The position numbers and the translations under genes are program-made. A stretch of 64,000 bases of DNA, taken from the NCBI RefSeq assembly GCF_030247195.1, contig NC_080671.1, positions 298,936,917 through 299,000,916 of the forward strand. The letters run 5' to 3'. The notes below the pieces were generated by a model that saw only the letters and a program-made list of their open reading frames with translations, was not told where the DNA came from and searched no databases. This DNA comes from Topomyia yanbarensis (lineage: Eukaryota; Arthropoda; Insecta; Diptera; Culicidae). Shown piece after piece: positions 18,252-50,710 of this stretch; positions within the stretch are counted from its first letter, which is position 1, and every line of letters starts with the position of its first letter.

Positions 18252-19715
18252 CAACGACACGACTCGACACTGGAGTTCCAAAACTGCATCGCAAATCTGA
18301 CTACCCCTCAGTGACTCAGGTAACTGGTACTGTCAAATATGACTTTTGGTTAAAAAATGCATGAAATTAGCAACACTGAACGGTCTTGTTATTTTTCCAA
18401 ATAACCTGGTGTATCCCTTGGTTACGCAGGGGAAAACGAATACACAACAATACAAATCTTGCGTTTGAAATAATTAATAAGGGTAGGAAAAAATAACTTG
18501 GTTTGGATCGAAAAAATCTCGGAAATTCTGTGACTAGTGCGTTAATGTTTTTACTATTTTCAGCGATCAAGATACAACTTATGGATAGTCTAGAAGAATA
18601 CACCACCGCCGCCCATACCGTCAACCGGTCCGCTTCCAAAATCGTAAATTAATACGGTTGAAGCGATCGCAAAAATTTGTACTCGATTTCTAGCTATTCA
18701 AATCCTGGTTACCAAATACTCCAACTCTGCTTGCGATGATACCACTCGGATTGACAAACCCGGAAGAAGTAGGATTTCGCTCTAATTTATTCGAAAAAAG
18801 ATACAGCTGGAACAACTCAGATTATATATACGATGCAGTTAGAGTGCAGCTATCAGGTTCTTCAATTATTCCACAAGCCCCTTACTTCGACACAGATCTT
18901 TCATTAGGGCCTAAGTCGCAATGTACTCAAATGGAGAAAAATCAGTTTCAACATTCAGGGATGCTTTTCTAAATGTAGTGTTTATTGCAGGTATAAATTA
19001 CTTTATGACCATGTTTTTCCGGAAGCATATTTGGTTAAACCTTACGACAATATAACAAAGAATTTAATTCCTATGTGCTTTTACTGGGTAGAAACTAAAA
19101 AAATGCTTACGCCCAATTTGCATCCCAGTCGTGATTTCGCCCTTCAGCAACCACCATTTGCGGAAGGGCTAAACTGTGTACATAATTTTCGGAAGGGCGC
19201 GGTAAATGGGCTAAACTGACTCTGTCTTGCTGGTTAGGGCTGGGTAAATGGGCGAGCTTGACAGTATACTTTTTAATAGGGCTCAGCAAATGGGCGCATA
19301 GAAACCCAATGTAAATGAAAGGGCGCGTGCATCTTTTCTTCGAATTACATGAAAATATCGAAATATTCGAATGTTTATGTGCAACAACTATCGAGTAGAC
19401 ATCATCATAGTAGATATTGCTTATCATTTCGCCGTTTAAAGAATAATTCTGTGAATAATAACCGTACGCCCGGTTCTGTCAAAAAAATGTAAGTTTAGCC
19501 TTTATATTCCATATGAGAAGAAGGGCCTAAGTCGAAATCTCGAAGAAAATGCACGTTTCGCCGTTTTGTTTTCCTCAATTATAAATCGAACTAAAAACCA
19601 TTTTAACTAATTTTCACCTCAATCTTGTAGTATTTTTGTCGCATAATGTCATAATAGCGAAAACGCAGTTTGTTTACATTTGCGATTTAAGCCCTAATGA
19701 AAGATCTATGTCGAC

Positions 19716-20220
19716 TTACTGTATGCTCATTAAAATAAAAATTTTCCCAGTTACATATTCGTTCTGCTTGTGAATGTAGATAACAATCAATCATTTTTAT
19801 TTGGTTCATATCTTCATCAGTACCTGAAACGTCAATATATTCCGCATTTATTTAGTCACAATGACTTCAGCGTAAACTATTGCAATAATTAGATATTTTT
19901 TGTAGAATATGTACCGATCGGTATCTGCTATGAAAATTTGATAGTTTCTCGTAATTCATTAATTAGCGGAATTGCAATAAATGTTTATCTATGCAGAATT
20001 TTCATAGCAGATACCGATCGGTACATATTCTACAAAAATATCTAATTATTGCAATAGTTTACGCTGAAGTCATTGTGACTAAATAAATGCGGAATATATT
20101 GACGTTTCAGGTACTGATGAAGATATGAACCAAATAAAAATGATTGATTGTTATCTACATTCACAAGCCGAACGAATATGTAACTGGGAAAATTTTTATT
20201 TTAATGAGCATACAGTAAGT
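19716..20220. repeat. 505-bp palindromic foldback element
   Basis: The left arm (19716-19937) begins ACTTACTGTATGCTCATTAA and is reverse-complemented almost perfectly in the right arm (19997-20220). The spacer is about 59 bp. It sits inside a ~65-bp segment that is itself an inverted copy of 18856-18922: the halves lie at about 19677-19718 and 20214-20252. No coding capacity. Confidence 0.9.
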
Positions 20221-20809
20221 AAGGGGCTTGTGGAATAATTGAAGAACCTTTGGACTGATAAATTCCCTTAAAGCTTCTCCAACGGAAGCAACATGCCATC
20301 AGAAATCTGTGACAATGGCTCTAAAACACTCCGTGAGTTTAATGACTAACTCGGGCAGTGTCATATAAATGATCCAGTTTCAGGAAGAGTCGATGTACTG
20401 AAAGTAAAACAAAAATCCACTAAATGCAATGGCCGTTGGCAGCCAGTGCGACGTAAATTTCATTGAGGTTCAGTAAGAGCTGTTTTAAATTCTAATACAT
20501 TACACTTTATGCTTTGTTTTGGACTCAACACGGTTTACCACTCCCGAAAACCAGGAATCAGTTTATCCATAAGCTGTTCAACGCTACCGGATCTTCGTTG
20601 AACTCTCCTTTCTATCTGGTCAAACGATAACAAAAGTTGTTAATGCCATGTTACGAGTGCCAAAATTATAATGAAATTCAATAGAGTAAACCTACCTCAA
20701 ATGGACGCAAATGCAACATTTGAGATATTAAAATACGCATTGAGGATAGGGTAGGCGATAACTATCGCACTTCCGTCGATTTGTAGCGAAACAAATGATA
20801 AATTTATAC

Positions 20810-21081
20810 CACAGATAACAGACGTTTAGGCTAGAACAAAATTTCTTCAAAAACCTGTGTAAACTTTCAAATTGATAAACGTTGGAAATCCGTGTTTCAC
20901 TATTGCCATCTGCGCAACTGTTTGCTACACGTGTTTGACAGCTGCACTCTAACTGCATTGTATCGATCACTGCGCCATCTACAAACGTTTGCCAAACGTG
21001 TTTCAAACGTCCGAATCATTCGGAATTTCAGTAGCGGGTATTTACACACGATTCAAATTGAGCCTAAACGTCTATTATGTG
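20810..21081. mobile_element. 272-bp TIR element with 7-bp target duplication
   Basis: The left end CACAGATAACAGACGTTTAG and the right end reverse complement CACATAATAGACGTTTAGGC are similar. TTTATAC at 20803-20809 recurs at 21082-21088. The left terminus closely resembles those at 38833 and 53820. The interior has inverted 'aaacgtttgccaaacgtg' motifs. Confidence 0.85.
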
Positions 21082-21088
21082 TTTATAC

Positions 21089-21984
21089 TATGTTAGTTAA
21101 AAACGTTTTAACTCGTAGTCTGAACGTAGTATTAGTATTGAGCACCTATTTTGATACTGAATTCTTGTTTTTTTTAATTTGTAGTTTTATTGCGTACGAA
21201 AATCTGTTAGTTTACACTGTACATCAGGTCAAGAAAACTTTTAATTGAACTTTAGGCAAACTAAATATGTTACTGTACATATTTTTGTTTGTTTGCTTAC
21301 TGTAATATTATTCAATTTGTTTGATGTTTAGTTTTAAATGTCCGGTATTACAGTTCTCGACAAATTTAATAGGATCGTATAAAAAAGATAAATGTTTAAC
21401 CATGTTTTTTCACTTCATCTCAAGCCTTTTCCATATGTTTTAAGATTGATATCTGACTAAAACTACGCCATTTAGCTGATGGCTCTACGGCTTCGATATA
21501 TTCCAATGTGAGTTCGTGAACCGAATGAGTAGAATATATGAAGGCCAAATATTATAGCCAATCTTGCATTGAAGGTACAAAACTAGGGCAATGCAGCTTA
21601 TCCATGTAATTCTTGTAGGGACCTCAGGAGTGGAGTATTAGCCCTTCTTGAACTCGGCACGCCAGCAGTTTATCAATGATGACTTCGTGACCCTTTTTGC
21701 AGGGCTCCGTAACAAATCTAGGCATCGTACGCAAGATAGTTTCTCGCCCTGTATGTTCTGAGTATGAAGGACCATCGCATCCTAACGTTAGATAACGCTG
21801 GCTCTTCGATGATAGCATTTCAAACATGGAATTATGCCTCTATTGTAGAACTATCTATCCTCCATCTGAAAATAGACATTGTTAAACTATTTAATGCTAT
21901 TACCTTTCGTTATCTCATTTTTAAAGCCATTTGGGTACGGTATTTACACCACAGTCAAACATTTTCACGGGAAGATGATGGCAT
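21089..21984. other. Interior of copy A without a recognised gene
   Basis: A minus-strand ORF at 21624-21827 contains 'CKKGHEVIIDKLL', which could be a decayed ankyrin-like repeat from a host gene. This is too short to name. Nothing else is recognised. Confidence 0.3.
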
Positions 21985-22145
21985 GATAACCACGCATAGT
22001 AATAAAATAAAATCAAAACAGTGTTGCTCGAGAAATTCATTTTTTATCTTTTCCGAGGGGTAGCTCAATGCACTGGTGACTAGCGATAAATGACTCGGGC
22101 ACTTTTTCTTTGAAATGTTTCATGAAGTTTCACGTCGTGTCGTTG
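21985..22145. repeat. Right-terminal sequence of the gene-capturing family, copy 1
   Basis: 'gtgttgctcgagaaattcat…gggtagctcaatgcactggtgactagcg…catgaagtttcacgtcgtgtcgttg' aligns with 22905-23066 and 31245-31381. It ends with the 9-bp GTGTCGTTG terminus. Confidence 0.8.
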
Positions 22146-22164
22146 CTTGAATCTTATCTTCTCT

Positions 22165-22775
22165 AGCGCATCTATGTGACGTTGTTTGACCGAGTCCGTC
22201 GAGCGTATCCACGTTGACATCGTGACGCAGAAGCACATCCATAATCTATATATTTTTCTCGTTCAACTGTGCACCATTACGAATCAAAATTTCGAGAATT
22301 TTTCGCTTCGGATACACTGAGTGAGCTACTGTACGGATGTACTACTTTGATATTTTCGGCTGAGGTTCTTTTTCAGTCACTGGATATCAGCCCGACAAGC
22401 ATCCAGCCAAAAGTGCTCCTTATATTCATCTGAAAATTTGCGTTCAAGATTCAAAATATTGCTATATTTTATAATTAAAATTTGAACTCACATGTAATTT
22501 TTTTCCTGCAGTTCTGATTCAGTTCGGGCACTTCAAAGTACCAAACGAACAGGCATTGTGCAGCGGAACAAGACATAACTTGGAATTAACGTCGGCATCA
22601 TGCTGCAGCAGAATCTGCACGACCCATATACGACTGTAACCGGCAGCCAGATGAAGTGGACGGATTTGCGCCCGTCAATTGCACGACCGTTCACATTCAG
22701 CAGTTCATCCTTTCTGTACTCACCCAGTCCGGGTGAGTACAGAAAGGATGAACTGCTGAATGTGAACGGTCGTGC
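22165..22775 (-). pseudogene. Tnks: Tankyrase ankyrin-repeat fragments (captured)
   Basis: Read on the minus strand, broken frames match the start of the ankyrin region of tankyrase, the poly-ADP-ribosyltransferase of telomere and Wnt/axin control. In order: 'YRKDELL' and 'DGRKS', '[14 protein letters not shown]' with '[12 protein letters not shown]', then after an intron-like gap (GTGAGT near 22495 to TTTTCAG near 22435) 'EYKEHFWLDACRADIQ', 'YPKRKILEILIRNGAQLNEK' and 'DTLDGLGQT'. Phase changes and internal losses (between DELL and NVN, and around the histidine-leucine motif) make it non-functional. The retained intron-like segment points to a genomic rather than an mRNA source. It lies between the two right-terminal repeats of copy A, so it was probably carried by the element. 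The assignment rests on recalled family motifs. Confidence 0.75.
22681..22775. repeat. Perfect 45-bp-arm hairpin in tankyrase DNA
   Basis: GCACGACCGTTCACATTCAG… (22681-22725) is perfectly reverse-complemented at 22731-22775 with a 5-bp spacer. The arm is tankyrase coding DNA (the DELLNVNGR segment), so a snap-back inverted duplication has occurred. An RNA across it would fold into a 45-bp stem. Confidence 0.95.
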
Positions 22776-22889
22776 AAGTGACAGTCCGTACAGGAGTCTG
22801 CCAAATTCAGTTGATTTATTTTCCGAATTTCTTATATTCGGCACCATGTTGTATAGCAGTGCAATTCAAACATAAATTTTTTCTTTGCT

Positions 22890-23066
22890 TGCGAATGGTT
22901 GCTATACAACAACAACAACCGAAAATCCAATAAACAAAGAAGTGTTGCTGGAGAAATTATTATTTTGGTCGCATCGAGGGGTTACTCAATGTGCTGGTAA
23001 CTGGCGCTAAATTACTCGGACACTTTTTCTTCAGAAGATTTAATGAAGTTTCAGGTCGTGTCGTTG
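22890..23066. repeat. Right-terminal sequence of the gene-capturing family, copy 2
   Basis: Starts near 'ggttgctatacaacaacaac', matching 31218-31240 of copy B ('ggttgctatacagcaac'). It ends TTTCAGGTCGTGTCGTTG at 23066, where 177-bp satellite begins at once (GTAAAATGC…). Confidence 0.85.
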
Positions 23067-23695
23067 GTAAAATGCTTTCCCTTTGCATGTAGAAATCGTT
23101 CATAAGAAGTGACCAGGGAATTTGTCGGCGCAGTAGAAATGAAATACCAAGTGTTTAGATATTTAGTATAGGTCCTTAGCGATCTAAAAAGTATAGTGTA
23201 GTCGGACCCAAAGAGTTCTATGATACTCTTGGGTAGTATAAGATAAAATGCTTTTCACTTTGCATGTAGAAATCGTTCATAAGAAGTGACCAGGGAATTT
23301 GTCGGCGCAGTATAAATGAATTACCAAATGTTTAGATATTTAGTATAGGTTCTTAGCGATCTAAAAAGTATAGTGTAGTCGGGCCCAAAGAGCTCTATGA
23401 TACTCTTGGGTGGCATATGGTAAAATGCTTTTCCCTTTGCATGTAGAAATAGTTCATAAGAAGTGACCAGGAAATTTGTCGGCGCAGTAGAAATGAAACC
23501 ACAAGTGTTTAGATATTTAGTATAAGTCCCTAGGGATCTGAAAAGTTTGGTGTAGTCGGGCCCAAAGAGCTCTTTGATACCCTTGGGTGGCATAAGGTAA
23601 AATGCTTTTCCCTTTGCATGTAGAAATCGTTCATAAGAAGTGACCAGGGAATTTGTCGGCGCAGTAGAAATGAAATACCAAGTGTCTAGATATTT
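23067..23695 (-). repeat. 177-bp satellite, segment 1
   Basis: About 3.5 tandem units of 177 bp (59 codons). The unit is recognised by 'cgttcataagaagtgaccag', 'gtcggcgcagtagaaatga' and 'gtcgggcccaaagagctct'. Read on the minus strand it stays open as repeats of 'MPPKGIKELFGPDYT…'. It continues at 26093 after the LOA-like insertion. Confidence 0.95.
23682..23695. repeat. 14-bp target-site duplication (left copy)
   Basis: GTGTCTAGATATTT is repeated exactly at 26093-26106 on the other side of the LOA-like element. It is satellite sequence. Confidence 0.95.
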
Positions 23696-26092
23696 TTTTT
23701 TTTTTCATACGTTTATTTGACACGGCATTTGCAATAGCTTTTTACGCCAGTTTCTTTTTTTTACATAGCACGTTACAAAAATCCTTAAGACTAATTTTAA
23801 CTATACTAGTACTTTGTCTAAAACTAACACTGAAATCACTTTATTGTTTGCTTTTTTCCTTACATTGTTGTATTTCATACTGATCTAGTATTTTCGGGTG
23901 TATTTATTTACTTTTTTTCTGTTATTGTCTAAATTTAAAAACTAAATATTCTAGGACCCTTTAATTGGTGAATGATTAGCCTTGGATGAGAGTATGAGGA
24001 GATGAATTTAATTAAATTTTGACAGACGCTGTTTTTAGAAAATGATAGATAAGTTCCATGTATAGAGGATCGCGATACGCCAGGATGTCTCTAACAGGAA
24101 CATGGATTGGTCTTCCTCGGACTTGTAAAGAATCTACTAATTGTGATCTGGCTTCACGATATTCAGTGCAGGACCAAACAACATGCTCAATGTCATGGTA
24201 ACCTTCTCCACAAGCACAATGATTACCCTCAGCGAGCCCAATACGACGGAGATGCGCATCTAAAGTATAATGATTGGACATGAGCCTAGACATCACACGG
24301 ATGAAGTCCCGACTTACATCCAATCCTTTGAACCATGCCTTCGTTGATACTTTAGGGGTAATTGAGTGTAGCCATCGTCCCATATCTCCATTGTCCCAAG
24401 ATGTTTGCCAACTAGCAAGTGTCCTCTGTCGAGAAGCGCTATAAAATTCATTGTAAGCGATGGGTCTTTCATATATTTCACCATCTAGTGCACCAATCTT
24501 GGCTAAATTATCAGCTTTCTCATTGCCCGCAATAGAGCAATGGGCGGGGAGCCACACTAGGGTAAATTTAAAACATTTTCTTGTCAGGTTACTCAGAGAT
24601 TCTCGTATCTTCCCCAAAAAGAACGGATCGTGATTATCAATCCTCTTTGAGCGTAGAGCTGCAATTGTGCTGAGACTATCAGTGAGGATAAAGTAATGGT
24701 TCGGGGGTAAAGTATTAATTATTTGCAAACTATAGTGAACTGCTGCTAGTTCCGCTATATAAACAGAGGCGGGTTCTGCAAGTTTGAGAGAAATTGAAAA
24801 ATTATTGTTGAAAATACCGAAACCAGTGGCCTCACTGATTCGTGACCCATCAGTGTAAAACATTTTAAGACAGTCTATGTGTTGATATTTACTTGTGAAT
24901 ATTTTAGGGATCTCCCGCGAGCGTAGATGACCCGGAATTCCACGAATCTCTGCTTGCATGGACGTGTCGAAGAATAAAGTGGATTCAGGAATATCTAGTA
25001 TATTGACGTATGTGGGAACATACCTAGCAGGCGTTATTTCTTGTGACATGTGATTGAAATACACTGTCATGAATCTGGTTTGGGGTTGAAGCTCGACAAG
25101 TCTTTCAAAATTTTCAATTACCAGTGGGTTCATAACCTCACATCGAATAAGTAAACGAGAAGAGAGATCCCAGAATCGGTCTTTTAAAGGAAGAACTCCC
25201 GCTAGTACTTCAAGACTCATCGTATGGGTCGACTGCATGCATCCTAAGGCAATTCGTAAACAGCGATACTGTATCCTTTCCAGTTTAATAATGTGAGTGT
25301 TCGCAGCTGAACGGAAACAGATGCACCCATATTCCATTACTGAAAGTATTGTTGTTTGATACAATCTTATCATGTCACTTGGATGAGAACCCCACCATGA
25401 TCCAGTTATTGTTCGCAGAAAATTTATCCTTTGTTGGCATTTCGTTATTAGATACCTAATGTGGCCTCCCCATGTGCCTTTAGAATCGAACCAAATTCCA
25501 AGGTATTTAAAAGTCAGGACTTGGGCTATCGTTCTACCAACCAACTGAAGCTGAAGCTGAGCTGGATCACGCTTCCTTGAAAAAACAACCAACTCTGTTT
25601 TCTCCGTAGAGAAATCGATGCCTAACTTCAAAGCCCAACTTGATAAATTATCCAAACTATCTTGCAGTGGTTGTTGTAAATTTAAGGCTTTTGGTCCTGT
25701 AACAGAAACCACGCCATCATCTGCAAGTTGCCTTAGAGTGCATGGGCTGACAATACAATTATCAATATCATTCACGTAAAAATTGTAGAGAAGGGGGCTT
25801 AAACAAGAACCTTGTGGGAGGCCCATGTAACTTATTCTGAATGTTGCCAAATCGCCATATGAAAAATGCATGTGCTTTTCTGACAATAAGTTGTATAAAT
25901 AATTATTTAATATTGGTGAAAGACCACATTGATGTAGTTTCTCTGAGAGAACATCAATGGAAACAGAGTCGAATGCTCCTTTTATGTCTAAGAACACAGA
26001 CGCCATTTGTTCTTTTTTTGCGTAAGCTAGTTGGATTTCTGACGAAAGTAGCGCCAGACAATCATTCGTTCCCTTTCCCCTCCGAAAACTAG
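23696..26092 (-). mobile_element. 5'-truncated LOA-like non-LTR retrotransposon
   Basis: 2.4 kb inserted in the satellite and flanked by the exact 14-bp duplication GTGTCTAGATATTT. On the minus strand it ends in a poly(A) (T run at about 23693-23705) after a ~300-bp 3' UTR. Its 5' end is cut off inside the reverse transcriptase domain, as is usual for target-primed reverse transcription. The intact TSD and uninterrupted frame suggest a recent insertion. Confidence 0.92.
24012..26092 (-). CDS. Partial reverse transcriptase-RNase H of LOA-like element
   Basis: The frame is open from the 5' truncation at 26092 to the stop at 24012. It begins inside RT with a 'FRRGKGTNDCLALL' motif and continues with FLDIKGAFDSV, GLPQGSCLSPLLYN and the catalytic box LADD (instead of the common YADD). 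A thumb region follows, then an RNase H domain (FYTDGSRISEATG; ILTDSLSTIAAL; LPAHCSIAGNEKAD) and a C-terminal cysteine/histidine motif (HCACGEGYHDIEHVVWSC). The role is copying element RNA and removing the RNA strand. RNase H plus that Cys-His tail fit the LOA/I group; the clade choice is tentative. No endonuclease remains, so this copy is dead but undamaged where present. Confidence 0.88.
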
Positions 26093-26871
26093 GTGTCTAG
26101 ATATTTAGTATAGGTCCTTAGCGATCTAAAAAGTATAGTGTATTCGGGCCCAAAGAGCTCTTTGATACCCTTGGGTGGCATAAGGTAAAATGCTTTTCCC
26201 TTTGCATGTAAAAATCGTTCATAAGAAGTGACCATGGAATTTGTCGGCGCAGTAGAAATGAAATACCAAGTGTTTAGATATTTAGTATAGGTCCTTAGCG
26301 ATCTTAAAAGTAAAGTGTAGTCGGGCCCAAAGAGCTCTTTAATACTCTTGGGTGGCATAAGGTAAAATGTTTTCCCCATTGCATGTAGAAATCGTTCATA
26401 AGAAGTGATCAGGGAATTTGTCGGCGCAGTAGAAATGAAATACCAAGTGTTTAGATAATTATTATAGATCCCTAGGGATCTAAAAAGTATAGTGTAGTCG
26501 AGCCCAAAGAGCTCTTTGATACTCTTGGGTGGCATAAGGTAAAATACTTTTCCCTTTACATGTAGAAATCGTTCATAAGAAGTGGCCAGGTAATTTGTCG
26601 GCGCAGTAGAAATGAAATACGAAGTGTTTAGATATTTAGTATAGGTCCTTGAGAATCTAAAAAGTATAGTGTAGTCGGACCCAAAGAGTTCTATGATACT
26701 CTTGGGTAGCATAAGATAAAATGCTTTTCACTTTGCATGTAGAAATCGTTCATAAGAAGTGACCAGGGAATTTGTCGGCGCAGTATAAATGAATTACCAA
26801 ATGTTTAGATATTTAGTATAGGTTCTTAGCGATCTAAAAAGTATAGTGTAGTCGGGCCCAAAGAGCTCTAT
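26093..26871 (-). repeat. 177-bp satellite, segment 2
   Basis: About 4.4 units continuing segment 1. A 207-codon frame (26712-26089, minus) runs through more than three units. It is broken at 26871 by insertion of copy B within 'gagctctat|gatactc'. Confidence 0.95.
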
Positions 26872-27065
26872 CAACGACACGACTAGACACTTGCATTCCG
26901 AAACTGTATCTCAAATCTGACTACCCCTCAGTGACTCAGGTAACTGGAAATGTCAAATTTGATGTTTGCTTAAAATATTCATGAAACTAGCAGCTCTGAC
27001 GAATCTGTTGCTATTAGGTTTTACACCAACCGACATAACCCCACAAAATGAGTCGGATGAACTTT

Positions 27066-27190
27066 GTTTGACAATTCTCGGTGGTTTGTTTACATGGGAG
27101 TTACGTGAGTTCGAATGTAACAGATGAGCACCCGTTGCACTCGCACTCACGCAATTGACAAAGTAAACAAACCACCGAGAATTGTCAAAC
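27066..27190. repeat. Perfect 28-bp inverted repeat
   Basis: GTTTGACAATTCTCGGTGGT… (27066-27093) is perfectly reverse-complemented at 27163-27190. Similarity extends a few bases outward ('atgaactt' and 'aacttcat'). Probably a small foldback MITE in the left arm of copy B. Confidence 0.85.
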
Positions 27191-27415
27191 ATGAACTTCA
27201 TTCATCATAAGTTCATTCGTGTCGTCATCTTGTAGAACTCAATATTTTTTTTTTCTAATAACAGTAACCCATGGTTACAATATTGTGACTATAAATAAAC
27301 TGGTTGGAATCTTCAATTCTTTAAAATTAATTTTATGATTATTGGTGAACAAATAAGCTTCCCGGCGCCGAATTTGCTCATTCCAGAGGTCAATTAGCTT
27401 GGGTGCGGAGAGAAA

Positions 27416-28371
27416 ATGGTATCAGCTAACGAGAATCAACTGCGCTACGATGGCCGGTTCCCGCGGTGCAAAGGTTGTGGTGAATGATTTGGGTGGCAAT
27501 TTTCACGGTCAGGGCAAATCGAATGCAGCCGATAATGTGGTACAGGAAATCCGAGCGGCTGGCGGAACCGCGGTTCCAGATTACAACTCCGTAGTGGATG
27601 GGGATAAAATTATTCAGACTGCAATGGAAGCATTTGGCCGTGTTGATGTTTTGATTAACAATGCTGGAATTTTGCGAGACAAGAGTCTTGCTCGCATTTC
27701 CGATGAGGACTGGAATCTTATTCATGATGTGCACTTGAAAGGTAGTTTCCTAACGACGCGAGCTGCCTGGGCGATCGTGAAAAAACAGAACTATGGTCGA
27801 GTAATTATGACATCCAGCAACTCCGGTGTCTATGGAAATTTCGGCCAAGCCAATTATAGTGCCGCCAAACTAGGATTGGTCGGGTTAGCCAACACAGTCG
27901 CAATCGAGGGAGCTAAAAATAACATTCAATGCAATGTAATCGTTCCAACGGCTGCGTCAAGGATGACCGAGGGAATACTTCCAGAGGTTTTGTTCAATGA
28001 GCTTAGTGAGTTTCATTGAATTTAAAACTGGCGAAGTAAATTCATTTTTTCTTTTTCAGAACCTAAATTGATTGCTCCGGTCGTTGCTTATCTGTGTCAT
28101 CAATCCTGTCAGAATACGGGGGTAATAATTGAAAGTGCAGCTGGTTGGGCCACATAGGTCCATTTTGTTAGGGGAAAAGGATCAATTCTCCGTACATCAA
28201 TCGATGATGATGTTACACCAGAGTATGTTAAGAGTGTTGGAATAAAGTCACTGACATGTCCGATGCGAAACATCTTAATGCCATCAGTGAAGCCAACATA
28301 TCTTTAGTAGACGTACTGGAAAAGTTACGCGAGGGAAAGCATGCCGAAAATTCCGTTACAGAAACATTTAA
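27416..28371 (+). pseudogene. Mfe2: MFE-2 / 17-beta-hydroxysteroid dehydrogenase 4 N-terminal fragment (captured)
   Basis: MFE-2 is a peroxisomal beta-oxidation enzyme; its N-terminal short-chain dehydrogenase domain oxidises 3-hydroxyacyl-CoA. An ATG at 27416 gives '[14 protein letters not shown]'. The segment that should hold the TGxxxGxG nucleotide-binding motif is then missing, with a frame change, and coding resumes at '[12 protein letters not shown]'. [10 protein letters not shown], the catalytic YSAAK (in 'NYSAAKLGL') and SSNSGVYGN follow. A 54-bp GT-AG intron (28006-28059) joins in phase to 'PKLIAPVVAYLCHQ'. A TAG at 28155 and a frameshift near 28240 follow, yet recognisable coding continues ('VTDMSDAKHLNAISEAN', 'LEKLREGKHAEN') to about 28371. 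The intron shows a genomic origin. It ends where antisense SSRP1 3' flank begins. Non-functional. Confidence 0.88.
28006..28059 (+). other. Retained 54-bp spliceosomal intron in MFE-2 fragment
   Basis: GTGAGT at the 5' end and a pyrimidine-rich TTTTTCTTTTTCAG at the 3' end. Removal joins the flanking coding sequence in frame. Confidence 0.85.
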
Positions 28372-28563
28372 GTTTAACTTTAAAGTTGTTATAGCGCATT
28401 GCGCACATAATAAGTGCGACTAAAAGTGCGGAAGCGTAAATAAAACTGCGCTTTTACATTGAATTGTCTTGGTGTCTATTACGCACTTATGTATTATCCA
28501 ACTGTGCAAACGTGAGAATATTTAGGTCAAAGAGAATCCATTTTTCGCTTCCGATAGTTTACT

Positions 28564-31213
28564 TTAGTCGCTGCTTGCTTCATCCGCTTCCTCCTCTTCC
28601 TCGGCGGATTCACTTCCCGACGCTTCTGATTCAGGCTCCGAGTCGGATTTTTCAGATTTCTGTTGAATAAAAATAATCAAATAAAACATTTCGAGCACAG
28701 TTACACTACACTGATAAAAAAGGCTTAAGAATTTCTTAAGTCAGGACTTATGAACCTGCACAATATTGATTCCATTAGACGATTATGTATTTCATAAGTA
28801 TGGCTAACGGAATTTGTTTGCGGGTTTTATGTTTATCTTAACATTGTTATTGTGAAAATTTCATTTCAGCATAGTGAAAATGAAAAACAAAAAACTATTG
28901 TTGGAAACGGACTTATTCTGGCACTCTGTTTCAAGTTGGTGGAATCAATGTAACTGTTGTAATCTACTTTTTTATACTTTTTGCTTCATAAAATTTTGTT
29001 TATTTTGCAGAAAATAAATATTGACACAACAGAAGCATAACTAGTACTTAGGCGATTGTGAGCTCCTTTGGAAATATCAGGTTTCTTCAAACTCACCCAG
29101 CAAAATAACGCAATGTAAGCTTAGCTAACAATATTTTGTTCTCGGAAAAAAAAAACAAATATTAGTATTTATTTCTTTTTACGATCCAAATGCATATAGT
29201 ACACCTATGAACATCAAAGAAATTCCTATATAAAATTCATAAAGCATTTCAATGATTTACGTGGGTACATCATAAACCTCTTAAGAATGTCTTAAAAATT
29301 TCATAAGTACCACTTATGAAATTCGATAGGGACTGAATGGCCAATTTTCCTTTCAGTCATAAGTAAAACTTATGATTTCCATATGGGAAACTTGTGGCGC
29401 AAAGTCATAAGTAGTTCTTATGAATTTCGATAGTTATTTTATCTCGGTGTAGATAACATACCTTCTTCACTTCCTTTTTCTTATCGTCTTTCTTACCACC
29501 CTTCTTCTTATCATCTTTAGTGTCTGATTTGTCCAGATCTGACCCTGATCCGGATTTTTTCGCTTTCTTAGTGTCCTTATTGTCATCGTCACCGCTGCTA
29601 CTGGAATCATCGCCGGAGATGTACTCCTTACTCTTTAAGCCGCTTCTTGGGGGAACTTGCTTCCTTCTTGCGCTTCTTGGTCGCTTTTCCACCATCATCT
29701 TCGCTTGCTCCGCCGCCACCATCGCCTCCTGCTTCCTTGTAGGCTTTCAATGCTTCTGCATACTCCTCTTTTGCCTTGGCTGCTTTCTGTTCCCATTCAT
29801 GCTTGTCCTTCAAATCCTTCCACATCTCACCACCCTTTTTGGCAATTTCGGTGACGGAGATTCCCGGATTGTCCTTCTTTATCTTCTCCCGACTTGCGTT
29901 CAACCACATCATAAAGGCCGTAGCCGGTCGCTACCAGCATCATCCGAGCCGTCATCGGAGATAGATTCCACATTTGAATCAAACTCGTCCGCCACATCCG
30001 ATTCTGCCTGGTTCGGGTTGAAGTCCTCATCGGTCGATTCTTCCGAATCATCATCGTCATCGTCATCATCTCGCTCCTTTGCTTCGGCCTTTACCCTCGC
30101 CAGATAGGCATCCGGTTCAGCCTCATTATCCGAATCGGCAAAGTCCTCCTTGTAGTTGCTTTTGCCATCCTTTCCAGTGTTCTTCACGTGCAATTTCTTG
30201 GACGAGATGAAATCGAACAGTTTCCCGTACTCTTCCTTCTCGATACTGCTGAACGTGTAGATGTTGCCTGCTTTTAGCTCGATTTCAAAATCAAAACTTC
30301 GAGTGGAGCCACCACTGCGAGCAAAGTTCACCGATGTAATTTCCTCGAAACGAATGTGAACCGGTGGCTTGTGGACGTAGATGAATCCTCGTTCCAGTGG
30401 GTAGAGATAACCTGCAGCTGCCTTGAAAGAACATCCAATTGCAGGAGTTCCCGAATGACTGAAAACGAGGCAAAATATATTTAAATTAAATTAGCCCGAC
30501 TTAAGCCGTTAGGGATTGGGATTCAAATAAAGCAAAGCTCACCCGATAAAAGTTCCCGGTCCGGTCAGCTTTGGGATTATGATGACTTTCATAATCTTTC
30601 CGAGTACTTCGTACACCGGTCCAGCGAGCTCTTTAGTAAGTTTATCCTCATACTTTTCCTTCAATTCCTCCTCGGTGAAGGGTAATTCGATGTTTGTTTC
30701 CTGGTCCATCTGGAACAGCGTCACCAGAAAGTGGTAACGAATTTGACCCTGCTTTGTCGGCGGATCCAACGAAATGACGAAAAACATTTGCCGGTTGTCC
30801 TTATGCGGCAGCAGGAACAACCGCAGCACCGACGACGTCGGAATCTTAAAATCATACGTCTTACCGTGCAGCTGGAAAAAGCTCTGGAATACTTTAATGT
30901 CGTAGCGACCGCGCGGTGTCAGGCAATGTATCTCTCGGAATATAGCAATTGCGTCACCGGCGTCACCAGACGCAGAAATTACGGAAGCCTGTCTCATCAC
31001 CTGCTCCTGGAATGTTTCGACAGGGTCAATTTCAGCCGATTCCGCTGTTGGAATGGGGAACCGCATTTCCATCAAATTCACCGGAGCTTCATCGTTCTGG
31101 TGAAATTCGACTGTAACTTCGTTCTTTCCGGCATTACACTGGGAAACGATTCAGCGGGATTTCAAAGCTTGTCTTTCCTTCCACATCGAACGAAAGAACG
31201 CTACCTGTAAACA
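28564..31213 (-). pseudogene. Ssrp: SSRP1 (FACT complex subunit) genomic fragment (captured)
   Basis: SSRP1 pairs with SPT16 in FACT, the histone chaperone that loosens nucleosomes. The minus-strand fragment begins at an intron 3' splice site (TTTACAG, exon from 31204) at 'GSVLSFDVEGKTSFEIPLN', so it lacks about the first 170 residues. It continues through the middle domains ('NLMEMRFPIPTA', 'IFREIHCLTPRGRYDIK'), an 84-bp intron (30459-30542), 'VNFARSGGSTRSFDFE', the acidic region, an HMG box ('MWLNASREKIKKDNPG') and a basic tail. A large intron (28660-29461) precedes the last exon, ending …EADEASSD at 28564. Lesions: a frameshift near 31140; loss of the lysine-rich linker and start of the HMG box near 29940, with a frame change; and a frameshift near 29645. 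It is a decayed genomic copy. Confidence 0.92.
28709..29449. mobile_element. TA-flanked MITE inside SSRP1 intron
   Basis: The left end CACTGATAAAAAAGGCTTAA and the right end reverse complement CACCGAGATAAAATAACTAT are related, both flanked by TA. The interior is full of 'cttatgaaattc' and 'cataagt' motifs in both orientations. It accounts for most of the length of the last captured SSRP1 intron. Confidence 0.65.
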
Positions 31214-31217
31214 TAAA

Positions 31218-31381
31218 ATGGTTGCTATACAGCAACAGAAAATAAAATAAACAAAAAGTGTTGCTGAAAAAAATATTTTTTGGTCGTATCGAGGGGCGAC
31301 TCAATGAACTGGTAACTGGCGGTAAATTACTCGCACACTTTCTCTTCAAAAGATTTCATGAAGTTTCAGGTCGTGTCGTTG
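31218..31381. repeat. Right-terminal sequence of copy B
   Basis: From 'ggttgctatacagcaacag' to GTGTCGTTG this matches the two right termini in copy A. SSRP1 intron DNA ends just inside it, marking the capture junction at about 31214-31218. Confidence 0.85.
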
Positions 31382-32770
31382 GCTCTATGATACTCTTGGG
31401 TGGCATATGGTAAAATGCTTTTCCCTTTGCATGTAGAAATAGTTCATAAGAAGTGACCAGGAAATTTGTCGGCGCAGTAGAAATGAAACCACAAGTGTTT
31501 AGATATTTAGTATAAGTCCCTAGGGATCTGAAAAGTTTGGTGTAGTCGGGCCCAAAGAGCTCTTTGATACCCTTGGGTGGCATAAGGTAAACTGCTTTTC
31601 CCTTTGCATGTAGAAATCGTTCATAAAAAGTGATCAAGGAATTTGTCGGCGTAGTAGAAATGAAATACCAAGTGTTTAGATATTTAGTATAGGTCCCTAG
31701 GGATCTGAAAAGTATAGTGTAGTCGGGCTCAAAGAGCTTTTTGATACTCTTGGGTGGCATAAGGTAAAATGCTTTTCCCTTTGCATGTAGAAATCGTTCA
31801 TAAGAAGTGACCAGGGAATTTGTCGGCGCAGTAGAAATGAAATACCAAGTGTTTAGATATTTAGTATAGGTCCTTAGCGATCTTAAAAGTATAGTGTATT
31901 CGGGCCCAAAGAGCTCTTTGATACCCTTGGGTGGCATAAGGTAAAATGCTTTTCCCTTTGCATGTAAAAATCGTTCATAAGAAGTGACCATGGAATTTGT
32001 CGGCGCAGTAGAAATGAAATACCAAGTGTTTAGATATTTAGTATAGGTCCTTAGCGATCTTAAAAGTAAAGTGTAGTCGGGCCCAAAGAGCTCTTCAATA
32101 CCCTTGGGTGGCATAAGGTAAAATGTGTTCCCCATTGCATGTAGAAATCGTTCATAAGAAGTGATCAGGGAATTTGTCGGCGCAGTAGAAATGAAATACC
32201 AAGTGTTTAGATAATTATTATAGATCCCTAGGGATCTGAAAAGTATAGTGTAGTCGAGCCCAAAGAGCTCTTTGATACTCTTGGGTGGCATAAGGTAAAA
32301 TACTTTTCCCTTTACATGTAGAAATCGTTCATAAGAAGTGGCCAGGTAATTTGTCGGCGCAGTAGAAATGAAATACGAAGTGTTTAGATATTTAGTATAG
32401 GTCCTTGAGGATCTAAAAAGTATAGTGTAGTCGGGCCCAAAGAGCTCTTTGATACTTTTGGGTGGCATAAGGTAAAATGCTTTCCCTTTGCATGTAGAAA
32501 TCGTTCAAAAGAACTGACCATGGAATTTGTCGGCGCAGTAGAAATGAACTACCAAGTGTTTAGATATTTAACATAGGTCCCTAGGGATCTAAAAAGTATA
32601 GTGTAGTCGGGCCCAAAGAGCTCTTTGATACCCTTGAGTGGCATAAGGTAAAATGCTTTTCCCTTTGCATGTAGAAATCGTTCATAAGAAGTGATTAAGG
32701 AATTTTTTGGCGCAGTATAAATGGAATCACAAGTGATAAGATATTTAGCATAGGCCCCTAGGGATCCGAT
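31382..32770 (-). repeat. 177-bp satellite, segment 3
   Basis: About 7.8 units. A single 370-codon frame (32468-31356, minus) crosses more than six units without a stop. The last unit degenerates and ends 'taggcccctagggatccg' at 32751-32769, where the 3' side of a retrotransposon remnant starts. Confidence 0.95.
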
Positions 32771-34623
32771 TAACAGTAGTCTGGCCGAGACTGGCTCGAA
32801 AAACTACAAGGGGCAGCCCTATGGGGTTGCACAAACTGTAGACGTAGGACTTTACTACTTATATAAAAGATTTATTTTCTTAGTACATTTAATAAATAAT
32901 AATAATAATTGTTATTGTTTTTTATTAACGACACTTTACACCTAAGGGTGCATTCGTGTCGGATGAAAATTGGTTTCTATAATCGTATCAACATCTCATA
33001 ACAATTTACAATTCAGTATTTTTATATTCATTTGTACAAATTAGTTTCTTTTAGGAAACTTAGCAGTTTGTCTTCGGCGTCCCCGTCGTTGCCTAGAGCC
33101 ACTCGCAGGCTGGTCGAATCGATGTTGTGCATCCTTCTAGCATCGTCGTGTTTTCGGCACTGCAGAATTACATGACGAACATCTACGGTTACCCCGCAGC
33201 AGGCGCAAACTGGTGGGGTTTCTCTCTTCAGAAGGAAGTCGCGCGTCAATCGGGTATGCCCTATTCGCAACCATGTGAGCACTCGCTGATCAGCCGAACT
33301 CTCGCGCTCAGTCCACTTCACCGTATCGAATTTTATTTCGCGAATCTTCACTTCAGTGGAAGCAGACCATCGACGGTACCACTGATTTCGGATAGCTGAT
33401 TTTACCTGATTGTTGGCGTCTGCTCCCGGAACGGCTATTTGCAAAGGGACATTACCCCTGGCTTCTCCTGCGAGGCGATCTGCCTCTTCATTCCCGCGAA
33501 TTCCAGCGTGTCCTGGAATCCAGCAGAGATTGATTGGACGATGTCGTATCATGGTTTCAATCTCCTGGATCCACGGATGCTGGGACGTGCCAGCTTCAAT
33601 TGCCGATAAACAACTGCCTGAGTCTGTCATTATTAGCAGATCATTGGAAGTGTAGTATGAAGTTACCGCTGTTTTAATTGCAAACGCCTCGGCCGAAAAC
33701 ACGCTGCACTGTGACGGAAGACCAATCGACTGCTGGAGATGTTCTCCAAACATTCCCGCGCCTACTGCGTCGTCGTCTTTCGATCCGTCGGTATACACAA
33801 CCGTTGAGTTGCTGAAGCGAACATTCAGGAGTTCCTGAACGACAGGACGGACCACTTCAGAGGGATCTCCGGCATTCATACATCTTTTGATATCCCACGC
33901 GACGTGGAGCTTGGGCTCGGCACTTTCGGGTTGCTAGTCGCGTTCGAGTACAAATATTTGATAGGGGCATTCTGATCACCTCTGACAGTTCTTCGGAAGC
34001 TCGGCGTACTAGTGGGAGATCCGCATTATTTCTGCTTTTTTCCAACATACGGATGGACAATCTGGTTATGCTTTGGGGAACGAGGAGATCAAATGGTAAG
34101 ATGTCTGCTTTGGCCATGATGGCTAAGATCGGACTTGTAACGAATGCACCAGATGCAAATCTTACCATCCTGTTGTAGGTGGGCGCGAGAGTTTTGGTGA
34201 CGGCATCTCCGCCCCGACTAACGAGTCCCATTTCATACAATAGTCGCGAAGTGACAATGGCGGAGCCGATTCGTAGCAAGGAGGTTCGTTGACCACGTGG
34301 TAGCTTTGCTCCGATCATTTTCAGGATACGCAGCCTGGATTCACATGCCTTCTTCGTTAGCTTGCAATGCGCTTTGAAGTTCAGCGATCTGTCGAGAGTG
34401 ATACCGAGGGTTTTCAGTTGATTTTGTGACGGTATAGCTACTGTATCTATCCTGATGGATTGCGTGGGCTCATGGCGGGCATTCGGGCTACAGTAAAAGA
34501 TGTTGGATTTTGTTGCTGATATCGTGAATCCAACACTTTTCGCCCATCTATGAACGGCTTTTACTGCTGACTGTAGCTTTCGAAAGAGTGGTTGTTCTTT
34601 TTAGCACCGCGCTACAAGAAGTA
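32771..34623 (-). mobile_element. 5'-truncated I-clade retrotransposon, copy 0
   Basis: Contains the 3' part of ORF2 (33028-34615), a 3' UTR with 'taacgacactttacacc', a mixed TAA/CAA-type triplet tract near 32887-32920, and a further ~115 bp ('gattaacagtagtctggcc…ctgtagacgta') that copy 1 also has. The 5' end is lost near 34615, next to a MITE. Confidence 0.8.
33028..34615 (-). pseudogene. I-clade ORF2 remnant: RT C-terminus and RNase H
   Basis: Minus-strand frames 34318-33857 and 33879-33028 give the RT thumb/connection region ('MIGAKLPRGQRTSLL') and an RNase H domain (VYTDGSKDDDAVGAG; MTDSGSCLSAIEAG; WIPGHAGIRGNEEADRLA). A Cys-rich tail follows (PVCACCGVTVDVRHVILQC). A frame change near 33870 and loss of everything upstream of 34615 make it non-functional. 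It is roughly 80% similar at protein level to copies 1 and 2, by eye. Confidence 0.85.
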
Positions 34624-34724
34624 TACCCAAGTAACAATTGAAGTTTTATAGCATGCTACAAGTGCAATCTAAGTTTTATCACTGGCTATAAAACTACCAT
34701 AAAACCTCAATTGTTACTAGGGTA
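34624..34724. mobile_element. 101-bp palindromic MITE
   Basis: TACCCAAGTAACAATTGAAG on the left, and the reverse complement of TACCCTAGTAACAATTGAGG on the right. The inner 'gttttatag' is also inverted. It sits exactly between I-clade copies 0 and 1. Confidence 0.8.
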
Positions 34725-35002
34725 GGCCCCTAGGGATTTGATTAACAGTAACCTGGCCGCGACTGGTTCGAAAAAACTACAAGGGGCAGCCCTATGGGGT
34801 TGCACAAACTGTAGACGTATGACTATACTATTTATAAAAAATATTTATTTTCTTAGGACATTTAATAAATAATAATTGTTGTTGTTGTTTATTAACGACA
34901 CTTTACACCAAGAAGTGAAGCATTCGTGTCGAAAGAAAAATAATTTACCTGGAAAATGTTTCAATGCGGTTGTTAGTTATCAGTTACAATTCAAAATACA
35001 AG

Positions 35003-38000
35003 TTACAACATATTGAACAAGTTAGTTTCCTTGAGGAATTTTACCATACTCTCCTCATTTTTCCTGTCGTTGCACAGAGCCGCTCGCAGACTAGTCGACT
35101 CGATGTCGTGCTTCCTTCTAACGTCGTCGTACTTTCTGCAGTGCAGGATCACATGGCGGACATCTACAATGATCCCACAGCAGTCGCACACTGGTGGTGA
35201 GGTTTTCTTCAGAAGAAAGTCGTGTGTTAGCCGAGTATGCCCTATTCGAAGCCGGGTAAGCACTCGCTGTTCGGTCGAATTCTCGCGGTCAGTCCACTTC
35301 CCTGTGTCGAACTTAACTTCGCGAAGTTTTACTTCAGTGGACGCAGACCATCGACGGAACCATTGATTTCGGATAGCTGTTTTCATTCGGTTGTTCGCGT
35401 CTGCTCCCGGAACGGCTATTTGCAAAGGGGCATTACCCCTGGCTTCTCCAGCGAGGCGGTCTGCCTCTTCGTTGCCATGGACACCAGCATGACCCGGAAT
35501 CCAGCACAACTTGATTGGACGGCCTCGTAGCATGTTTTCAATCTGCTGAATCCACGGGTGTTGCGATGTGCCAGCTTCTAATGCCGATAAGCAACTGGCC
35601 GAGTCAGACATAACCACCAAATCACTGACCGTGTTATGTGTTGCTAGCGCCGTTTTGATTGCAAACGCTTCTACCGAGAAGACGCTGCATGACGATGGAA
35701 GACCAACCGATTGTTGGAAGTAATCTCCATACATTCCTACACCTACCGCATTGTCGTCTTTCGAACCATCCGTGTAGACGATAGTTGAACGGTTGAAACG
35801 ACCTGCTAGGAGCTCCTGAAAAGCAGGCCGAACAATTTCCGAGGGGTCACCAGCTTTCACACGTCTCTTTATGTCCCACACGATCTGGGGCTTGGGTTCG
35901 TGCCATCTTCGTGCAGCTACACGCGTACGAGTGCAAATATCTGGAAGAGGGATTCCGATCACCTCTGCCAGACGTTCGGATGCTCGATGTGCCAGTGGGA
36001 GGTCGAGGTTATCCTTGCTTTTTCCTAACGTATGGATGGCCAACCGGGCTATACTTTGAAGAACGAGAAGGTCGAATGGTAGGGTTCCTGCTTCTGCCAT
36101 AATTGCTAGAATTGGGCTCGTGACGTATGCACCGGATGCAAACCTTACCATCCTGTTGTATGTAGGAGCGAGCGTTTGGATGACGGCATCTCCTCCTCTG
36201 CTTACAAGTCCCATACCGTAAAGGAGTCGCTAGGTAACAATTGCGGACCCGATTTGCAGTAAAGAAGCGCGTTGACCACGGGGTAGCTTGGCACCGATCA
36301 TCTTCAAGATACGCAGCCTGGATTCACACGTCTTCTTCGTCATTTTACAATGCGCTTTAAAGTTGAGTGATCGGTCGAGGGTGACACCGAGAGTTCTCAG
36401 CAGCGTTTGTGTCGGAACGGCTACACCATCTACCTTTATCGCCTGCATGGGTTCACGGCGTACGTTGGGGCTGCAATAGAAGATGCTGGATTTCGTTGCA
36501 GATATCGTAAATCCAACACTTCTCGACCATTTATCGACGGCTTTTACTGCGGCCTGAAGTTTTCGAAGGAGCGACTGTTCTTTCTTTCCCCACACAAGAA
36601 GCAGAATATCATCGGCGTACAGAAACACTTGTACAGAGTTTGGAACCACGCGGAAGATGGGTTGGATGGCCACGAGAAATAGTGTCACAGAGAGCACTGA
36701 GCCCTGCGGCACACCATTTTCCAGCGGATGTGCTGGCGACAAATGCCCCTCTACGTTGACCTGGAACGTTCTCTCTGCCAGAAAACTGTTGACAATGTTT
36801 ATCATCCTTCCGCGTATTTGCCATTTCTGCAGTGTTCGTAGGATGCCATATCTCCAGGTGGTGTCGTACGCCTTGGCCAAGTCTAGCGACGCTATCAGAC
36901 AGTGCTCGCACGGTCTCCAACTCTCCAACTCCGCAAAGTATGTGTCAGTACCCCGACCCGATCTGAAGGCATGTTGTCGTTTGTTGAGACGCCCGTTCGA
37001 CTCTAGCTCGGTGGTTAACCGTCAGTTGACAATTCGCTCGAACACCTTCGCCATACAACTAGTTAACGTGATTGGACGGAATGCAGCTGGACCCGCGTCA
37101 TCCGAGCTTGGCTTTGGAATTGGTACGATCATTCCGGTTCGCCAACAGGGTGGGAATACGCCACTGCGCACGGACCGCTTGATGACAGTTGGGCGGTGTT
37201 GGCGTTTCCCTCTCAACGTGTTCACTGTCTGCCACATCTCCGACGTAGTTGAACTTGGAGATATCTTCGCACCAAATCTTCCCATGATTTTTTCTTGGCA
37301 TGATTCCTGGAAGCTTTTCAGTGAATCCGATTTTCGTGGGTCCTCTGTTGGTATACGTTTTAGTGCTCTAAGTGCTTTTCTCCGATTTTTGATAGCTGCT
37401 TTCACCTCCGGACACCACCACGGAACCGCTTTGGGACCGACTCTGCCGGTAGTGCGAGGTATCGCGGTATTTACTGCTCTAATCAACCGGTCAACGAAAC
37501 AGTCGATTGATATTTCGACGCCCGGTCGTATAGCGTTGGCGGTCAATCGCTCGTAGGTTGTCCAATCTGCTTGGTCGTAAATCCATTTCTGTCATTTCGT
37601 TGGGATAGTCGACAGTCCGGGAATGGAAACGAGAATGGGAAGTGATCACTGCTGTGGGTGTCCGGAAGTGTTCGCCAAACAAATATCGAAGCCACCGATT
37701 CTGAGCAGATCGAGAGGCCGAAGTAATACCGGTAGCTGGATCAATCCGAGTGTGCGATCCGTCGTCGAGGATGAGTAATCGTTCCGATAGCGTTTTTTCG
37801 GCGATGAAGTGGCCTAGTGCGGTAGATTTCGTAGAACCCTAGCAAATATGGAGTCGCCTAGTACCAGCACTGGACGTGGAAGCGTTTCGAGGAAGTCACC
37901 CAGCTGTTCTTGACACTGTTGAGTATTGGGAGGGACGTAGATCGATACCACTGTCATTTGTTGTGGCAGTTGGATCCGAACTGCGATTGCCTGTATATTG

Positions 38001-50643: not shown

Positions 50644-50710
50644 CATTCACATAGCATGTTCTATAACTCTAAAGCAATTAAAGTTATGTATATAGTGTCT
50701 TCAGAAATTA

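Follow-up and report, generated by a model that had tools for sequence, protein, structure and literature searches.

Structure of element C and its cargo

Within the 64,000-bp stretch of Topomyia yanbarensis DNA analysed here (the window), a unit designated element C carries pieces of two host genes, MFE-2 and SSRP1, between inverted ends; its features and those of its neighbours are presented in Table 1. The terminal inverted repeat (TIR), CAACGACACGAC, is exact at 26872-26883 (plus) and 31370-31381 (minus), and the 7-bp target duplication (TSD) is exact on both sides, as the preliminary description had reported. The end pattern of the element family was defined as CAACGACACGACNNGAMAC. The exact terminal 12-mer occurs five times in the window (18252+, 22134-, 23055-, 26872+ and 31370-), and when up to two mismatches were allowed 13 matches were found, against a mean of 3.58 (maximum 9) in 100 shuffles. 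The arms common to the family reach far past these 12 bp (143 bp on the left, about 165 bp on the right), while the two arms match each other as inverted repeats over about 12-33 bp only. When the flanks of element C were joined with the 7 bp retained once, they differed at a single position in 394 bp from the satellite at 23199-23592, which bears out the empty site proposed earlier.

Table 1 Features of element C and related sequences in the window
Feature	Positions	Strand	Basis or remark
Whole element C	26872..31381	+	4,510 bp; exact 12-bp inverted ends, 7-bp TSD, 14 other fetched two-gene copies
Left copy of target duplication GCTCTAT	26865..26871	.	Read from sequence
Right copy of target duplication GCTCTAT	31382..31388	.	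Read from sequence
Left arm, first 143 bp	26872..27014	+	Identical at 14 places in the genome, counting the window
Inverted-repeat-bearing insertion, about 227 bp	27015..27241	.	Absent in 14 other two-gene copies
Captured MFE-2 piece	27334..28393	+	Matches native MFE-2 1578-2701
Spacer between the two captured genes, about 106 bp	28394..28499	.	No origin assigned
Captured SSRP1 piece	28500..31211	-	Residue ~115 to stop codon plus 3′ flank, introns kept
Nested insertion inside SSRP1 piece, about 744 bp	28708..29451	.	Copy comparison
Right arm (about 165-176 bp)	31206..31381	-	Comparison among family members
Paralogous empty site, target once, in 177-bp satellite	23199..23592	+	Sequence match
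Element A, same family, other content	18252..22145	+	Identity to C: left arm 86%, right arm 79%
Second right arm of the family and preceding ankyrin-repeat gene piece	22146..23066	-	Arm 22894-23066, gene piece 22146-22893

The cargo was identified by PDB sequence search. The frame 27357-28016 (plus) matches Drosophila MFE-2 (3oml, E 7.7e-89, chain residues 36-224), the frames 30542-31150 and 29912-30490 (both minus) match SSRP1 (E 8.2e-78 and 7.7e-62); a Pfam scan placed the HMG box at 29631-29930 (minus). These matches confirm the two genes originally named, which lie tail to tail with introns present in both. The MFE-2 piece, whose exon borders were read from the window sequence, comprises 5′ flank, the ATG at 27416, exon 1, an intron at 28006-28059 and part of exon 2; it is frameshifted in the window copy, where 59 bp of exon 1 in the dinucleotide-binding part are missing. 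No transposase was recognised among the listed frames of element C (two scanned by Pfam, three by PDB sequence search), in agreement with the first reading of the element.

Two further sequences of the family precede element C. Element A possesses both arms and no matching TSD, and one short peptide from its content gave no Pfam match. The ankyrin-repeat piece beside the second right arm probably belongs to tankyrase, an assignment of moderate confidence: a 51-residue piece matched Pfam Ank_3 (E 7.8e-08), a 32-residue piece had no match, and the PDB list placed designed ankyrin-repeat proteins first and Tankyrase-1 fifth.

Copies across the genome

Other copies with the same ends, the existence of which the preliminary description had left to a genome search, were found: a first look gave 558 candidate loci, and among the best 40 scored, 14 (window included) were 100% identical over 143-151 bp. 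At least 15 copies hold the two-gene cargo, namely the window copy and those at 14 of the 20 fetched loci. A 7-bp duplication was found in all 23 elements with matching flanks, with 22 different sequences, and an 8-bp flank match in none of the 22 elements checked. These 23 insertions are spread over three large contigs. Internal deletions are frequent among the copies, and at 7 of 28 loci no right end was found in the stretch read. The 744-bp nested insertion is full also in L010, L018 and L021 and at most partial in the remaining two-gene copies; a stretch related to the 27015-27241 insertion lies in opposite orientation within L009.

Diversity (pi) is 0.0056 in the left arm, which served as the search query so that its low value is ascertained, and 0.0033 in the right arm, which was no query, against 0.0092-0.0211 in the cargo exons; the MFE-2 intron has 0.0076 (49 columns). 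Singletons per kb per copy show a smaller contrast than pi, with 2.8 and 1.6 in the arms, 3.2-6.5 in the cargo exons and 2.8 in the nested-insertion stretch. Variable sites fall on codon positions 1:2:3 as 21:13:18 in MFE-2 exon 1 (15 copies) and as 6:11:11 in one SSRP1 exon (12 copies). With no codon pattern at these sites and no sign of selection at the protein level, the cargo looks like passenger DNA.

Parental genes and capture from DNA

The cargo was aligned with its parents, whose possible adjacency had been raised in the preliminary description. Native MFE-2 (L033/L034) and native SSRP1 (L030/L032) were found on different chromosomes, C2 and C3, respectively. The native sequence captured amounts to about 1.1 kb of MFE-2 and about 2.1 kb of SSRP1, the latter covering native 1339-3461. 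In the copy at L016 the MFE-2 piece is contiguous and 98.1% identical to the native gene over 1,124 bp, intron included; a native-to-copy distance of 3.2% obtained for MFE-2 was set aside, as it was thought inflated by badly aligned gapped regions. Since the introns are kept, the capture came from DNA.

The location of the parents leaves hardly any room for a segmental duplication or an assembly artefact of a region with MFE-2 beside SSRP1. Nothing was found in favour of it, and it is contradicted by the paralogous empty site and by the spread of the 23 insertions over three large contigs, with 22 distinct 7-bp TSDs among them. Scattered gene pieces in many copies could also be produced by retrocopying or by Helitron capture, yet the retained introns (in both MFE-2 and SSRP1) and 5′ flank speak against it, and inverted ends with 7-bp TSDs suit neither process; this explanation is extremely improbable as well. 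What was found is a pair of ends and a TSD enclosing host-gene DNA, parents located elsewhere, and a multicopy unit of the same structure with distinct TSDs. Element C is very probably a Pack-TIR, a TIR transposon that is non-autonomous and captures genes, and the P superfamily is the one to which it most likely belongs. It probably arose by fusion of two elements and would have been mobilised in trans.

Target sites and the likely mover

The insertion sites of the family follow ANAGTwNwACTNT. Among the 23 sites, the motif letters were counted as A(-2) 17, A(0) 13, G1 17, T2 15, A6 17, C7 13, T8 12 and T10 20. At least five of the eight letters are present at 20 of the 23 sites, compared with 4.0% of 20,000 random positions, for a motif recognised after the first 18 of these sites had been seen; in those 18, the letters A0, T2, C7 and T8 fail correction for 132 tests. 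In the available text of PMC4168063, the palindromic ANAGT...ACTNT is the target tendency of P and 1360, and GTANTAC is the target of Galileo; the target of the element C family matches the former and is close to the latter. Galileo also shares with the element C family a 7-bp TSD and ends better conserved than the rest (PMC4168063, PMC2775673, in the parts available), while its TIRs are long and internally repetitive, unlike the briefly matching arms of element C.

The TSD of the family falls within the 7-8 bp of the P superfamily, from which it differs in that its elements carry no transposase. The genome contains 135 matches of a P-type transposase domain, and several of them have long open frames. 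The TIR is absent, at up to two mismatches, from both of the P-transposase loci read (L043 and L044; 2 of the 135 matches), no P-type transposase was recognised by eye among the longer frames listed for L026, L027, L035-L037, L040 and L041, and the ends were not linked to any autonomous copy. Because the insertion sites follow the target tendency of P and 1360, the family is likely to be moved by a transposase of the P superfamily.

The ends themselves, 12 bp long and not diagnostic, and the lack of a linked transposase would suit a mover of another TIR superfamily, such as MULE/Phantom, hAT or Dada. We consider this improbable, as the TSD is 7 bp in all 23 elements, the target motif is the one given for P and 1360, and the genome is rich in P-type transposase domains. 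TSDs are 8 bp long in hAT elements and 8-11 bp in MULEs, and the 8-11 bp characteristic of Pack-MULEs was seen in none of the 23 elements. The animal equivalent of Pack-MULEs envisaged in the preliminary description is supported as a gene-carrying TIR element, though the P superfamily is likelier than MULE.

Origin of the two-gene cargo

Two loci are candidate intermediates. L031 is an SSRP1-only element with its own TSD, and compared with element C its right arm is 98.9% and its left arm 86% identical. Its SSRP1 piece extends further on both sides (native 1093-4091 against 1339-3461), and the loss of native 2058-2189 is common to both elements. Five fixed differences, all at third positions, are common to L031 and the two-gene copies; these may be changes in native SSRP1 and by themselves do not prove a single capture. 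Three short peptides from positions 139-943 of the L031 element gave no Pfam match. The other locus, L009, has a C-type left arm and MFE-2, with no SSRP1 in the part read and no right end in the 9.5 kb read. Its MFE-2 5′ flank is longer (from native 1479 against 1578 in C), and it carries an internal MFE-2 deletion. L009 could be an MFE-2-only element or, alternatively, could have lost SSRP1.

Together, L031 and L009 suggest a fusion of two capturing elements. An ancestral element would have copied SSRP1 sequence running from its 3′ flank to a point ahead of the first exon, and the 5′ part of MFE-2 would have been acquired by a second element with a different left arm. A chimera made of the left half of the MFE-2 element and the right half of the SSRP1 element may then have formed through recombination or template switching. 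A P-type transposase whose gene lies elsewhere would have mobilised this chimera in trans, and its copies would have decayed by internal deletion with the ends remaining functional. The same transposon might instead have taken both genes stepwise, with L009 and L031 as later losses. Internal deletions are indeed common among the copies and L009 itself has one in MFE-2; however, L031 retains more SSRP1 on both sides, its left arm is clearly different while its right arm is near-identical, and L009 retains more of the MFE-2 5′ flank, so that we regard stepwise capture as the less likely course, with perhaps a minor chance of being right.

Comparison with known systems

Multi-gene capture by TIR elements is common in plants, where Pack-MULE and Pack-TYPE copies with more than one gene exist. 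According to the available part of PMC8903248, these TIR elements are non-autonomous, as is element C, and likewise capture coding DNA and shuffle it. They belong to superfamilies other than the one likely for element C. To the question whether animal DNA transposons capture and spread genes as in plants, the element C family contributes a multicopy two-gene case for which native parents, an empty site and candidate intermediates are at hand. Sequence alone therefore suffices to follow capture and fusion step by step. In nature, the family also allows one to test whether such cargo is neutral, which is how it looks here, or forms chimeric genes or feeds the silencing of its parents.

Tentatively, and with somewhat more doubt than belief, the family may be a general gene shuffler of the P superfamily at the scale of plant Pack-MULEs, with repeated capture (MFE-2, SSRP1, a tankyrase-like gene and others), recombination into multi-gene cargo and genome-wide spread, and chimeric transcripts or small RNAs directed at the parental genes may be produced from some of the copies. 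The available text of PMC8277862 mentions gene capture by P elements in two studies with artificially activated transposase; if the mover is confirmed, natural gene capture would be linked to this superfamily.

Judged by the literature listed, such capture is little described in insects. Animal Pack-TIRs were described in 2021, and that screen, in the text available, gave none in birds or in insect reference genomes and 4 multicopy cases, with a median duplicated size of 224 bp and 87.2% assigned to hAT or TcMariner (Tan et al. 2021, PMC8277862). Among the literature matches listed (titles and abstract starts, few subscription journals), no insect case of a gene-carrying TIR element was found besides PMC8277862, and the terminal repeat sequence had a sole match in papers, one on Streptococcus agalactiae. 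From the same partly available source, Ssk-FB4 of Drosophila melanogaster involves a single gene, is present as four copies at three loci, and has long TIRs and TSDs of 9-10 bp; it and the other animal Pack-TIRs resemble element C in having TIR ends around copies of host-gene DNA with the parent elsewhere, and in the multicopy cases distinct TSDs show repeated transposition, as for the element C family (PMC8277862). Element C differs from them in carrying two genes that come from different chromosomes, in the length of these pieces (about 1.1 and 2.1 kb of native sequence), in having at least 15 copies, and in its 7-bp TSD and P-type target. Turmoil-1 of C. elegans, as presented in the accessible part of PMC2572040, is an animal element with two captured protein-coding sequences, as in C, and there, unlike in C, the capture lies within the inverted repeats themselves.

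Structure of element C and its insertion site

Element C terminates in perfect 12-bp inverted repeats at 26872 and 31381 (CAACGACACGAC), and GCTCTAT lies directly outside the element on both flanks. The insertion breaks a 177-bp satellite, and a paralogous empty site was found there: the flanks of element C, joined with one GCTCTAT (394 bp), correspond to an uninterrupted stretch of the window with one mismatch. Inside, the 5′ part of MFE-2 and SSRP1 from about residue 115 through the stop codon, HMG box included, are oriented tail to tail. No transposase was recognised in element C or in the other family members read. The preliminary description had reported the ends, the duplication, the empty site, the cargo and the missing transposase from the sequence alone, and all of them were borne out.

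Positions of features in the window
Feature	Positions	Strand	Remarks
Element C	26872-31381		4,510 bp
MFE-2 5′ part, frame	27357-28016	+	Drosophila MFE-2 3oml, E 7.7e-89
SSRP1	inside element C	-	
Empty site	23199-23592		
Further exact 12-mer	18252	+	
Further exact 12-mer	22134-22145	-	
Further exact 12-mer	23055-23066	-	
Element A	18252-22145		same family
Ankyrin-repeat gene piece	22146-22893		probably tankyrase
177-bp satellite (59 codons)	23066-23695, 26093-26869, 31382-32766, 50709-52694		one frame open across many units
Satellite frame	31356-32504	-	382 codons
LINE-like insertion	~23697-26092	-	reverse transcriptase and RNase H (Pfam)
Non-LTR-retroelement-like frames	33028-41021	-	by eye
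Non-LTR-retroelement-like frames	41721-47704	-	by eye
LTR-retroelement-like frames	54302-57308	-	by eye; several pieces
Two tandem 352-bp units	6268-6975		TRF, 100% match

Parental genes

A search with the MaoC domain gave native MFE-2 as the sole match (C2, 197.19 Mb), while a search with the POB3_N domain, absent from the cargo, gave two places, native SSRP1 (C3, 80.79 Mb) and locus L031 on C1. C1, C2 and C3 are the large contigs, treated as chromosomes (218, 470 and 429 Mb of a 1.168-Gb assembly). Thus, the parents lie on different chromosomes and are not neighbours at one native locus, an arrangement that the preliminary description had linked to segmental duplication. As also proposed there, the cargo contains an intron: aligned to its parent, the MFE-2 piece covers native positions 1578-2701, unbroken and with the intron included (98.1% over 1,124 bp in the copy at L016). 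The SSRP1 piece corresponds to native 1339-3461 with deletions (96.3% over the 1,285-bp aligned part of the window copy).

Copies across the genome

The genome was searched with the 151-bp left end of element C, which gave 558 first-look candidates, and the best 40, the window included, were scored. Twenty-eight of the other 39 were read, in sets of 20 and 8. The element is not alone in its ends. The right end lay within the stretch read at 21 of the 28 loci and was not found there at L009, L013, L015, L028, L038, L039 and L042. Perfect 7-bp target duplications flank all 23 elements (those at the 21 loci, element C and the L031 element), in 22 different sequences, and an 8-bp match was found in none of the 22 checked, a set that did not include L031. 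At L025, among the 21, the left terminal repeat differs by one base.

MFE-2 and SSRP1 occur in the same arrangement at 14 of the 28 loci, all from the first set of 20, making 15 copies with the window. Apart from the left arm (the conserved terminal stretch beyond the 12-bp repeat), what L009, L013 and L015 share with these is limited to MFE-2 sequence or the flank 5′ of it, and neither gene was seen in L026-L028 and L035-L042 (11 of 28). The two-gene copies vary by internal deletions, with most of one SSRP1 exon block lost in L014 and L019, and by a nested insertion of ~744 bp, which four carry in full (window, L010, L018 and L021) and the others at most in part. The shared arrangement, the nested insertion and the spread over C1, C2 and C3 indicate one composite amplified by transposition, and copies already containing the insertion were so copied again. 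Given the 15 copies, the 23 of 23 target duplications and the separate parents, we conclude with high confidence that element C is a capturing transposon, as had been proposed, and that it was multiplied in this way.

The element at L020 is partly tandem-duplicated, with two right halves each ending in the same right arm. L026, L027, L035, L036 and L037 form a subfamily whose interiors are ~65-97% alike in aligned parts, and they may be what is left of an ancestral element that was once autonomous.

Candidate intermediates

The element at L031 (3,671 bp) is flanked by a 7-bp duplication of its own and has SSRP1 as cargo; no match to native MFE-2 was found in it. Its SSRP1 extends further both ways than that of the two-gene copies (native 1093-4091), and the loss of native 2058-2189 (±4 bp) is common to both. 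Compared with element C, its right arm is 98.9% identical and its left arm only 86%. L031 and 12 aligned two-gene copies also have five differences from native SSRP1 in common, all at third codon positions, which may reflect change on the side of the native gene and carry little weight. At L009, the left arm is identical to that of element C over 143 bp, and more MFE-2 5′ flank is present (from native 1479), with the TGAGAGLG motif intact; SSRP1 is absent from the part read. As the simplest reading, we infer with moderate confidence, the right end of L009 not having been found, that an MFE-2-capturing and an SSRP1-capturing element fused, so that the product would have its left half from the former and its right half from the latter. 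No long microhomology was seen at the element junctions examined; alignments overlap by 4-6 bp at two internal junctions, and a ~106-bp spacer separates the two pieces. Positions 139-943 of the L031 element match neither native SSRP1 nor the compared elements, contain short protein-like frames and are possibly a third captured gene.

The preliminary description saw an animal equivalent of the gene-capturing plant TIR elements, which is right in substance. Tan et al. 2021 described gene-carrying TIR transposons in animals, though none from insect reference genomes, and Turmoil-1 of C. elegans has two captured coding sequences (PMC2572040); the principle is therefore already known in animals. 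As far as literature searches show, what this family adds is a multicopy cargo of two genes drawn from two chromosomes, together with candidate intermediates and a target signature of P type.

Target motif and transposase

The 23 target sites share the palindromic motif A-N-A-G-T-w-N-w-A-C-T-N-T, with A(-2) in 17, A(0) in 13, G(1) in 17 and T(2) in 15 sites, and A(6) in 17, C(7) in 13, T(8) in 12 and T(10) in 20. At least five of the eight letters are present at 20 of 23 sites versus 4.0% of random positions (20,000 in the first 20 loci read, elements included). All eight agree with the tendency ANAGT...ACTNT described for P and 1360 in PMC4168063 and PMC2775673, where Galileo is given the target GTANTAC and 7-bp duplications. 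This match was noticed after the first 18 sites, not beforehand, and at those sites A0, T2, C7 and T8, half of the eight letters, fail correction for 132 tests. There is good support, from target length and motif and not from a linked transposase, for placing the family in the P superfamily.

The P-type transposase domain has at least 135 genome matches among the 150 candidates scored out of 172, and some of these matches lie in long open frames. Family ends were absent from both such places read (2 of 135 matches). Several matches have equal score and open-frame length, which suggests P-like families that were active recently.

Variation among copies

MFE-2 exon 1 (648 bp, 15 copies) has 52 variable sites, divided 21:13:18 among codon positions 1:2:3, and is still open in 7 of the 15. 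One SSRP1 exon has 28 (6:11:11) in 12 copies, L014, L019 and L024 being omitted since parts of SSRP1 exons are missing there. As the variable sites follow no codon-position pattern, selection at the protein level shows no sign among the copies. Fixed differences from native number eight in this SSRP1 exon (1:1:6) and only three in MFE-2 exon 1, the latter pointing to a MFE-2 capture that would be young. Nucleotide diversity (pi) is 0.0033 in the right arm, 0.0056 in the left arm, which as search query is partly ascertained for low diversity, 0.0092-0.0211 in cargo exons and 0.0076 in the MFE-2 intron; the right arm, left arm and cargo exons have 1.6, 2.8 and 3.2-6.5 singletons per kb per copy, respectively. 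The lower arm variation is as expected if solely copies with working ends continued to move.

Other family members and repeats in the window

Around the three further 12-mers, similarity to the arms of element C (left, 128 bp, 86%; right, ~140-173 bp, 79-86%) runs inward past the 12-mer, so at least two further members are partly present in the window. Element A has both arms without a matching target duplication. From 18252 to 23066, a single left arm is followed by two right arms, one of them preceded by the ankyrin-repeat piece. Satellite borders this series only on the right, and a matching 7-bp duplication was found for neither left/right pairing with up to one mismatch. The arrangement could reflect two insertions that rearranged with each other, or an element that is both nested and truncated.

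The LINE-like insertion lies in satellite. The open satellite frame, which at 382 codons extends into the right arm of element C, could be repeated peptide-coding sequence or chance. The two non-LTR-like stretches are related, one with open frames of 1064, 555 and 422 codons and the other more broken.
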